Source of the DNA: Anaerolineaceae bacterium
Lineage (GTDB): Bacteria; Chloroflexota; Anaerolineae; Anaerolineales; Anaerolineaceae
DNA length: 64,000 nt
Direction of reading: 5' to 3'
Assembly: GCA_029265815.1 (NCBI GenBank)
Contig: JAJUGU010000001.1
Location: 547,941-611,940, forward strand
Shown here: positions 3,591 through 5,459 of the stretch, one piece after another
How the letters are laid out: each line of letters starts with the position of its first letter
Position numbering within the stretch: position 1 is the stretch's first letter
Program-made: the position numbers and the translations under genes
Notes under the pieces: generated by a model
Told to the model about the DNA's origin: nothing
Seen by the model: the letters and a program-made list of their open reading frames with translations, nothing else
The model's database searches: none

Positions 3591-4928
3591 TTAAGCCAGT
3601 TCTAGATATTTTTCCAATTCCCAATCCATTACTTTCAATCGATAATCTTCCCACTCGGCCCATTTAGCCCTTTTAAACGCTTCATACAACGTTTCGCCAA
3701 GAGCATTCTTAATTAGAGGATCGCTATCCATTTCGATCAGAGCTTCTCGTAGTGACCCGGGAAGTTCAACGATGTTTCTCGCCTCTCTTTCTTCACGGGT
3801 CATGTCATAAACATTTATGTTATTTAATGGTGCGGGGGCTCTGAGATTTCTCTCAATGCCATCAATCGCAGCAGTAAGCATGACGGTAAATGCCAGGTAG
3901 GGATTGCATGACGGATCAGGACAGCGCAATTCTGCTCTTACCGCGGTGGTCAATCCATCGTTTGCACGCGGGATGCGGATCAATGCAGACCTGTTGGTTT
4001 GAGCCCAACCCACATAAACAGGAGCTTCATATCCTGATACGAGTCTTTTATAAGAATTAACCGTCGGAGAGGTCACCGCTGAGAATGCTCTTGCATGTGC
4101 CAGCTGGCCGGCGATGAATCCATACGCGATTTTTGATAGATGAAATTCGTCGTCTTTGTCATAAAAAAGATTACTGCCGTTTTTATCAAACAGAGATTGG
4201 TGGCAGTGCATCCCTGAACCAGCGATGCCAAAAATTGGTTTGGGCATGAAGGAAGCCACCAATCCATTCTGAGCGGCAATGGCTTTAACAGTGTATTTCA
4301 TCGTTAAAACATTATCAGCCGAACGCAGGGCGTCACTAAAGTGGAAGTCGATTTCATGCTGAGCCAGAGCACATTCATGGTGCCCCACTTCTACTTCCAA
4401 CCCCATAATGTCAAGCGCATGCATTAATTCCGTTCGAACACGAACAGCTTCATCATTGGGTGAAAAATCAAAATAACCACCGACGTCATGCGGAACAGGG
4501 CGAATTGAGGAATCTCCATTTCGGCGAAAGAGAAAGAATTCCGGTTCTGACCCCACCATGAATTTCCAACCTTTTCGATCAATCTCATCAAGTTTCGATT
4601 TGAGTACTCCCCTCGGATCGCCCTCAAACCGTCGCCCATCAGGGTGGAAAATATCGCAGAAAAGGCGGGCGCGTTTGAATTCCATTGGCGACCACGGGAG
4701 CACAGCATAAGTATCTATATCAGGGCATAACCGCATATCACTCTCCTGGATACGCGCAAAACCTTCCACAGATGAGCCGTCGAACCAGATGCCGTCATCA
4801 AGCGCTTCACCTAAACGCGAAATGGGCATGTCCACGCTTTTCACTGACCCCGTGACATCAGTAAATTGAAGCGAGATAAACCCAACCTCATCAACAGCAA
4901 TTCTTTCCAGCAATTCTTTCTTGTCCAT
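3591..4928 (-). CDS. glnA: Type I glutamine synthetase
   Basis: WFDGSSVEGFARIQESDM, GSGMHCHQSL, NSYKRLVSGYEAPVYVGWA; start reassigned from the ORF-track 5042 to 4928, preceded by AAAGGAGATAATC. Confidence 0.95.
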   Translation of the reverse strand: MDKKELLERIAVDEVGFISLQFTDVTGSVKSVDMPISRLGEALDDGIWFDGSSVEGFARIQESDMRLCPDIDTYAVLPWSPMEFKRARLFCDIFHPDGRRFEGDPRGVLKSKLDEIDRKGWKFMVGSEPEFFLFRRNGDSSIRPVPHDVGGYFDFSPNDEAVRVRTELMHALDIMGLEVEVGHHECALAQHEIDFHFSDALRSADNVLTMKYTVKAIAAQNGLVASFMPKPIFGIAGSGMHCHQSLFDKNGSNLFYDKDDEFHLSKIAYGFIAGQLAHARAFSAVTSPTVNSYKRLVSGYEAPVYVGWAQTNRSALIRIPRANDGLTTAVRAELRCPDPSCNPYLAFTVMLTAAIDGIERNLRAPAPLNNINVYDMTREEREARNIVELPGSLREALIEMDSDPLIKNALGETLYEAFKRAKWAEWEDYRLKVMDWELEKYLELA

Positions 4929-4941
4929 GATTATCTCCTTT

Positions 4942-4979
4942 GAATTAAAAAGACTAAAGGCATACGAAGGTATGCCTTT
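4942..4979 (-). terminator. Intrinsic-terminator-like hairpin in the glnA 5' UTR (possible attenuator)
   Basis: Minus strand AAAGGCATAC-CTTC-GTATGCCTTT (10-bp perfect stem) followed by AGTCTTTTTAATTC, immediately upstream of the glnA SD. Confidence 0.7.
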
Positions 4980-5046
4980 AAATAATGAATACATCAATAC
5001 GAGCATCCCTTCCATTTCAACAATACAGGTGTGCCTTACCACCAGA

Positions 5047-5251
5047 CCAATATCAGAAACCTGTCCCGAACGTCACCGTGCGGTTTTCATTGCTGATTTG
5101 TATTGGAAGGGAGATTGAAGCCCTTGGTTGGGCTCCGGAGGCATCCGCTGATCATTCGATTTTCCCCTGAATCCATCCCCCCAGGGTTAACATCCTTCTC
5201 GCGAAGGAGAACCTCCACCTCGTCATCTCGACATTCCGAGATGCAGCCGCT
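5047..5251 (-). ncRNA. glmS-like (glucosamine-6-phosphate) self-cleaving ribozyme/riboswitch candidate upstream of glnA
   Basis: Minus strand A|GCGGCTG-CATCTCG-GAATGT-CGAGATG-ACGAGGTGGAGGTT-[49 nt]-ATCGAATGATCAGCGGATGCCTCC-GGAGCCC-AACCAA-GGGCTTC then CCAAT..ATCAG...CTGATATTGG. Blocks GACGAGG, GGAGGUU, AUCGAAU and GCGGAUGCCUCC match the remembered glmS ribozyme core; P1-, P3- and P4-like helices can be drawn. Confidence 0.8.
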
Positions 5252-5287
5252 GTTTCTCTCGTTATTCAGTTGTTAAATATTGAAAGT

Positions 5288-5316
5288 ATCATACAGAGGT
5301 TGAATGAATTTGTCAA
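5288..5316 (-). promoter_or_regulatory. Sigma70-type promoter for the ribozyme-glnA transcript
   Basis: Minus strand TTGACA-17 nt-TATGAT; predicted start about 30 nt upstream of the putative cleavage site. Confidence 0.75.
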
Positions 5317-5459
5317 TAGGTATTCTTTACAATAAGGCTTCTGCAATTTTTTACCATATCAGCCAAGGCATATATGAAGTGTAACTGAATCAATTTTTCT
5401 ATTTTCACATACCCGAAAAATACCCTTGACAAAATTTGTATGATTCCATTCTCATTCGC

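Follow-up and report, generated by a model that had tools for sequence, protein, structure and literature searches.

The glnA leader

The window, i.e., the 64,000-nucleotide stretch of DNA analysed here, encodes a type I glutamine synthetase (glnA) on its minus strand. The gene is preceded by a long leader with a predicted glmS-class ribozyme and an intrinsic terminator. The features of the locus, all on the minus strand, are the following.

5316-5288: sigma-70-type promoter, TTGACA-17-TATGAT, 11 of 12 consensus matches
about 5281-4945: glnA leader, containing the glmS-class ribozyme
5253-5260: P0 5' strand GAGAGAAA, 5' of the cleavage site, pairing with UCUC at 5114-5111 (covariation)
5250-5251: predicted cleavage site A5251/G5250 (A-1/G1), from the RF00234 alignment
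5244-5250: P2.2 5' strand, G1 C2 G3 (G4 bulge) C5 U6 G7, with partner C5150 A G C G5146
5224-5243: P1 hairpin CATCTCG/CGAGATG (model alignment, fold, covariation)
5210-5223: core ACGAGGTGGAGGTT, with the P2.1 5' strand (C5222 G5221 A5220), the general-base candidate G5218 and the P2 5' strand; ACGAGG invariant
5164-5209: clade-specific insertion of two hairpins, P2a (5209-5193) and P2b (5186-5164), from leader comparison
5137-5161: core 3' strand AATCGA..ATCAGCGGATGCCTCC, the 3' strands of P2.1, P2.2 and P2; AUCG and UCAGCGG invariant
5117-5136: P3 hairpin GGAGCCC/GGGCTTC (fold)
5104-5116: J3/4 AATCTCCCTTCCA, where the P0 3' strand UCUC overlaps the P5 5' strand UCCCUUCCA (pairing, covariation)
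5052-5097: P4 domain, made up of the helix AUCAG/CUGAU, an internal loop rich in A (GAAAAC/GACAG) and P4.1 with a GUGA tetraloop (model-aligned)
5006-5014: P5 3' strand UGGAAGGGA, whose GGG overlaps a possible antiterminator strand
4945-4981: intrinsic terminator TTAAAGGCATACC-TTCG-..TTTAG followed by TCTTTTTAA, directly 5' of the glnA ribosome-binding site (RBS)
4940-4934: glnA RBS, AAGGAGA
3591-4928: glnA, 445 aa (TIGR00653, 517 bits; PF00120/PF03951)

We compared positions 4900-5350 with all Rfam families using cmscan. The glmS ribozyme family, RF00234, matched 5262-5042 of the minus strand over the whole model (1-167), with 34.7 bits and an E-value of 1.3e-6. This is 2.3 bits below the gathering score of the family (37), and the element is therefore missed by a routine scan: at the gathering threshold, the default Rfam scan returned only a tRNA in the window, and no RF00234. 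Other leaders of the glnA type do exceed the cut-off, e.g., L008 (46.3 bits) and L011 (42.9 bits). An earlier note, made from the sequence alone, had placed a glmS-type ribozyme ahead of glnA and called for a search with RF00234; the full-length match, significant though sub-threshold, bears this out, and all of the sequence blocks that it quoted are found between 5251 and 5047. The element extends beyond these bounds, on one side to the leader bases 5' of the cleavage site and on the other to the terminator at 4981-4945. The predicted fold of 5255-4927 is more stable than 100 out of 100 shuffled sequences (z = -3.1). The promoter, said to start transcription some 30 nt ahead of the cut, is also there: transcription is predicted to start near A5281, 30 nt upstream, and similar -35 and -10 boxes are visible in the leaders of close relatives.

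Covariation was assessed by a register-free shuffle test, which compares the true partner strand with randomly dealt partners and controls for shared ancestry only in part. P1 scored 17.88 with its own partners and 10.93 with shuffled ones. The P3 hairpin was recovered as first drawn, and its loop ACCAA (5128-5124) pairs with UUGGU (5050-5046) to form the P3.1 pseudoknot (13.28 against 11.96 when shuffled, sd 0.30, 1 of 5000 shuffles). The proposed P4 helix was right in its ATCAG/CTGAT part and lacks support in its outer part, CCAAT/ATTGG, which fits P3.1 and P5 better: TTGGT pairs with the P3 loop, and CCTTCCA with TGGAAGG further 3'. Both the P3/P3.1 pseudoknot and the P4 domain of the glmS class are present in the glnA leader.

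Genomic context and conservation

The whole genome has two credible matches to RF00234: the glnA leader (E-value of 1.8e-6) and a copy of ordinary type (38.7 bits) directly 5' of glmS. A third match (C13, 17 bits) lies inside a coding sequence and was discarded as noise. Both copies carry, between GGUU and AAAUCGA, an insertion specific to the clade and consisting of two hairpins around GUUAACC; in the order, this P2a/P2b insertion occurs in leaders of both the glnA and the glmS type. The copy of the window precedes glnA and not the usual glmS, a difference of context, location being no structural criterion of the class. The genome encodes two glutamine synthetases, of which the glnA of the window is one, and one clear homologue of RNase J (581 bits); the genome search returned no clear glutamate synthase.

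RF00234 matched 53 of 61 genomes of relatives, often twice per genome, with 47 of the 75 loci ahead of glmS and 26 ahead of glnA. We then assembled 75 non-redundant glnA-type leaders from the order, with near-duplicates removed. The first gene downstream was glnA in 54 of them. Twelve preceded AraC/EamA genes, with glnA next in seven and the contig ending early in the other five. Five preceded a split glutamate synthase (GOGAT), one a small ORF, and in three the contig ended. The GOGAT subunits were identified by PF01645 (E-value of 3e-86), GXGXG and a weak GATase match; two more GOGAT leaders were found in relatives (L009 and L072). We also scanned named genomes by pattern; among the matches listed, the glnA-type motif together with the 3' core was present in MAGs of Anaerolineae and in isolates belonging to Bellilinea, Levilinea, Longilinea and Pelolinea. 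Matches of the pattern in Streptomyces and other non-Chloroflexota lacked the 3' core and were rejected as chance. Among 399 genomes sampled evenly over the phylum, 12 had the exact motif, 11 of them within the order of the window; the twelfth is probably a chance match. In the rest of the class, most of the RF00234 matches retrieved precede glmS. The conservation and covariation that the earlier note had asked for in orthologous glnA leaders are thus found order-wide. Judged from gene context, the association with glnA is conserved across the order, where the glnA-type leaders form a nitrogen-assimilation regulon.

Some loci have a less usual organisation. An AraC-family regulator and a YedA-like EamA exporter recur as a cluster between the ribozyme and glnA (L087, L102, L133, L152, L155, L156). 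In Longilinea arvoryzae (L118, 797-1250), a glnA-type ribozyme with neither P5 nor terminator precedes a 46-aa acidic ORF (MAEENALPIEFNEIEDEYIEQ...), and convergent genes for branched-chain amino acid ABC transport come next. A different family of the class has a glmS ribozyme with P5-like strands ahead of a DegT/DnrJ-type sugar aminotransferase-like gene (L219 and L222, about 1501-1765). A glmS ribozyme with P5 and terminator is apparently ahead of a FAD-binding oxidase-like gene (L228, 1501-1732, minus strand); the other copy in that genome, L241, precedes glmS.

Catalytic core

We aligned 73 glnA/GOGAT-type leaders. The catalytic core of the glmS class (A-1 G1 C2 G3, ACGAGG, AUCG, GCGG) is kept at 98-100%: A-1 is found in 98% of the leaders and G1 C2 G3 in 100%, and ACGAGG, AUCG and UCAGCGG are invariant. 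By the residue numbering of published work (PMC7125110, PMC11602151), G5218 is likely the general base.

The deviation from the class lies in the strand that follows the cleavage site. It reads GCGGCUG in nearly all leaders (68 with A-1, one with G-1), GCGACUG in two and GCGUAUG in two. Canonical P2.2 has the pairs C2-G56, G3-C55, C4-G54, C5-G53 and G7-C52, with A6 bulged (numbering of PMC7125110). In the glnA leader the pairs are C2-G56, G3-C55, C5-G54, U6-A53 and G7-C52, with G4 bulged, i.e., five pairs and one bulge as in the class. The odd strand is thus explained by a bulge moved from position 6 to position 4 at an equal number of pairs, and A(-1)G1C2G3 therefore remain in place. The pairing of GCUG with CAGC, noticed early on, turns out to be real, as P2.2 with its bulge at position 4. 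The exceptions AGCGACUG and AGCGUAUG agree with this model. In the glmS-type copies of the clade the bulge is mostly at position 5 (GCGCAUG). Position 5 and its partner covary in the glmS-type leaders of the order, C facing G in 5 leaders and A facing A in 39, which fits a bulge at 6 or at 5.

In a canonical core, G4 in place of C4 would do damage unless the bulge truly shifts. Mutants give a precedent: A6C rescues C4A about 24-fold, C4A becoming, as its authors infer, the bulged base, and shifted bulges retain better activity than mismatches, with partial rescue (PMC7125110). Since shifted-bulge mutants regain cleavage, it is plausible, by analogy, that the glnA leader is competent for cleavage.

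The P0 helix

Base pairing between the leader 5' of the cleavage site and J3/4 defines a new feature, the helix P0, as predicted from pairing and covariation. In 75 glnA/GOGAT-type leaders the score was 14.13 with the own partners and 12.81 with shuffled ones (sd 0.20, 0 of 5000); in 48 mostly glmS-type leaders it was 16.79 against 13.20 (sd 0.33, 0 of 5000). The signal was not weakened by de-replication to 28 sequences. The position of the helix varies by 1-2 nt from species to species, which blurs a count per pair at fixed register, and we therefore relied on the register-free test. The window itself has only GAGA/UCUC. Leaders that lack P5 retain the P0 strand of J3/4.

P0 is stronger still in ordinary glmS copies of the class (L001 1501-1680, the glmS leader of this genome, and L010-L077), for example TTGGAAAG/CTTTCCAA in the glmS leader L051. 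It may be a general, hitherto undescribed trait of Chloroflexota glmS ribozymes. A motif resembling ACAAYYGAATA recurs in the transcribed leader just 5' of P0 (5272-5261 in the window) in 45 of the 75 glnA-type leaders.

Expression platform

The two strands of P5, CCUUCC in J3/4 and the downstream GGAAGG, are as a rule present or absent as a pair: 59 leaders have both, 12 have neither, two have only CCUUCC, and none has only GGAAGG (Fisher test, 5e-12, uncorrected for ancestry). This co-occurrence was used because both strands are invariant in most members, and the shuffle test accordingly gave no covariation for P5 in the main set of leaders. Scattered variants were read by eye, GCCCCUC/GAGGGGC in L009 and CCCCUCC/GGAGGGG in L228.

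A terminator-like hairpin with the core GGCAYGCCC..GCRUGCC and a U-run is present in 57 of the 75 leaders, usually 20-35 nt 5' of the first gene. About one-sixth (about 12) keep the core and have neither P5 nor terminator. The 5' arm and loop of the terminator complement GGAAGGGCNGCC, a strand that shares its GGG with P5. They covary with GGAAGGGNNNGC (-13.78 kcal/mol with the own strand against -12.84 when shuffled, sd 0.20, 0 of 10000, n = 55), also at the strictest de-replication (30 of 5000, n = 19). A control strand gave no covariation signal with the terminator arm in the same test. The leader therefore has a terminator with a mutually exclusive antiterminator strand, as terminator-type riboswitches do. 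In the window, the fold with P5 and terminator (-51.8 kcal/mol) is favoured by 8.5 kcal/mol over the antiterminator fold (-43.3 kcal/mol). Since it is favoured at equilibrium, the ON state must be kinetic, formed during transcription.

Proposed mechanism and alternatives

We propose that GlcN6P-triggered self-cleavage at A5251/G5250 lowers the expression of glnA, and give this reading a probability of about 0.8; cleavage, GlcN6P as ligand and the direction of control are all inferred. GlmS uses glutamine to make GlcN6P. When plentiful, GlcN6P would act as catalytic cofactor and the RNA would cut itself between A5251 and G5250. Expression would then drop through decay of the mRNA from its 5'-OH end, for which the genome has the RNase J homologue; decay of the cleaved mRNA is suggested by analogy with glmS. 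Most members would add a layer of attenuation: with CCCUUCC of J3/4 taking up GGAAGGG in P5, the latter would be unable to antiterminate, and the terminator would form before the RBS. The anatomy and the covariation make transcription attenuation somewhat more probable than its absence, its dependence on the ligand being conjectural. P0 and P5 share bases of J3/4, so that a cut removing the leader could favour P5, hence termination. The full chain, in which the leader strand of P0 is lost by cleavage, J3/4 becomes available to P5, the antiterminator is sequestered and transcription of the GS or GOGAT genes terminates, is a tentative proposal that we consider doubtful as it stands, the hand-over from P0 to P5 being suggested by the shared bases. 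The product of the glutamine-consuming GlmS would in this way restrain the making of glutamine (by GS) and, in some species, of glutamate (by GOGAT). The second GS gene of the genome counts against this reading.

The alternative that survives best, still an unlikely one, is a non-cleaving RNA derived from the glmS ribozyme, in which the rearranged substrate strand has left a plain aptamer that controls glnA through terminator and antiterminator alone. All glnA-type leaders do deviate from the canonical GCGCC (GCGGCUG, GCGACUG, GCGUAUG), unlike the glmS copies, and most have the terminator downstream. Yet the near-invariant A-1 G1 C2 G3, ACGAGG and AUCG..GCGG would be purposeless in a dead ribozyme, about 12 leaders retain the core with neither P5 nor terminator, and the shifted bulge has its cleavage-competent precedent (PMC7125110). 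Less probable again is a ribozyme that has kept its fold and exchanged its ligand, e.g., for a nitrogen-metabolism amine, and would sense nitrogen status and not GlcN6P. Catalysis by the glmS ribozyme requires only a suitable amine, and the targets are GS and GOGAT and not amino-sugar genes; however, within the clade the glnA and glmS copies have identical residues in the cofactor pocket, and we saw no systematic change in the pocket. The terminator between ribozyme and glnA could also mean that the RNA is a transcript of its own, with glnA expressed by readthrough or from another promoter and the ribozyme incidental. We regard this as improbable, given that the terminator is so close to glnA, that covariation links its arm to the antiterminator strand, and that the same leader also precedes GOGAT and the AraC/EamA/glnA operons. 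A chance resemblance to the glmS ribozyme, for which one could cite the sub-threshold Rfam score, is already refuted by the comparative data, with an E-value of 1.3e-6, order-wide conservation and covariation.

If GlcN6P-dependent control of glnA is correct, the level of amino sugars throttles the supply of glutamine, tying a cell-wall precursor to nitrogen assimilation. Should the doubtful chain from cleavage to termination hold as well, a self-cleaving RNA would turn a metabolite signal into termination and not only into mRNA decay. The element is also present in relatives that have been cultured, from Bellilinea, Levilinea, Pelolinea and Longilinea, and the model is therefore directly testable.

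Comparison with known systems

The closest known system is the glmS ribozyme (RF00234), reportedly the subject of Winkler et al. in 2004. The glnA leader has in common with it P1, the P2/P2.1/P2.2 double pseudoknot, P3/P3.1, P4 with its A-rich internal loop and GNRA loop, the A/G cleavage site and all core bases. It differs in controlling glnA or GOGAT instead of glmS, in the P2.2 bulge at position 4 and not 6, and in the addition of two P2 hairpins, P0, P5 and an intrinsic terminator as expression platform. By its predicted structure, the glnA leader is a sequence-divergent subfamily of the glmS ribozyme.

In the open literature searched, which did not include the survey of McCown 2011, said to be the main one for glmS ribozymes, we found no report of a glmS ribozyme controlling glnA or GOGAT, nor of one with a terminator/antiterminator platform. 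The glnA/GOGAT-linked glmS ribozymes are thus likely new, an earlier mention being possible. We know of no earlier cross-pathway use of this ribozyme. Reviews describe it as sensing GlcN6P to regulate the production of GlcN6P itself (PMC9971707, PMC10043782). An order-wide regulon of GS and glutamate synthase under a glmS sensor would, if confirmed, be the first known cross-pathway use.

The glutamine-I riboswitch of cyanobacteria (RF01739) is likewise a leader RNA that controls glutamine synthetase. It senses glutamine, unlike the GlcN6P presumed here, and the Rfam scan gave no match to it in the window. With attenuating riboswitches in general, the glnA leader shares a terminator just 5' of the RBS and a competing upstream strand, whereas here this platform is joined to a ribozyme of a self-cleaving class. 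The terminator would thereby provide a second output for a ribozyme known for destabilising mRNA.
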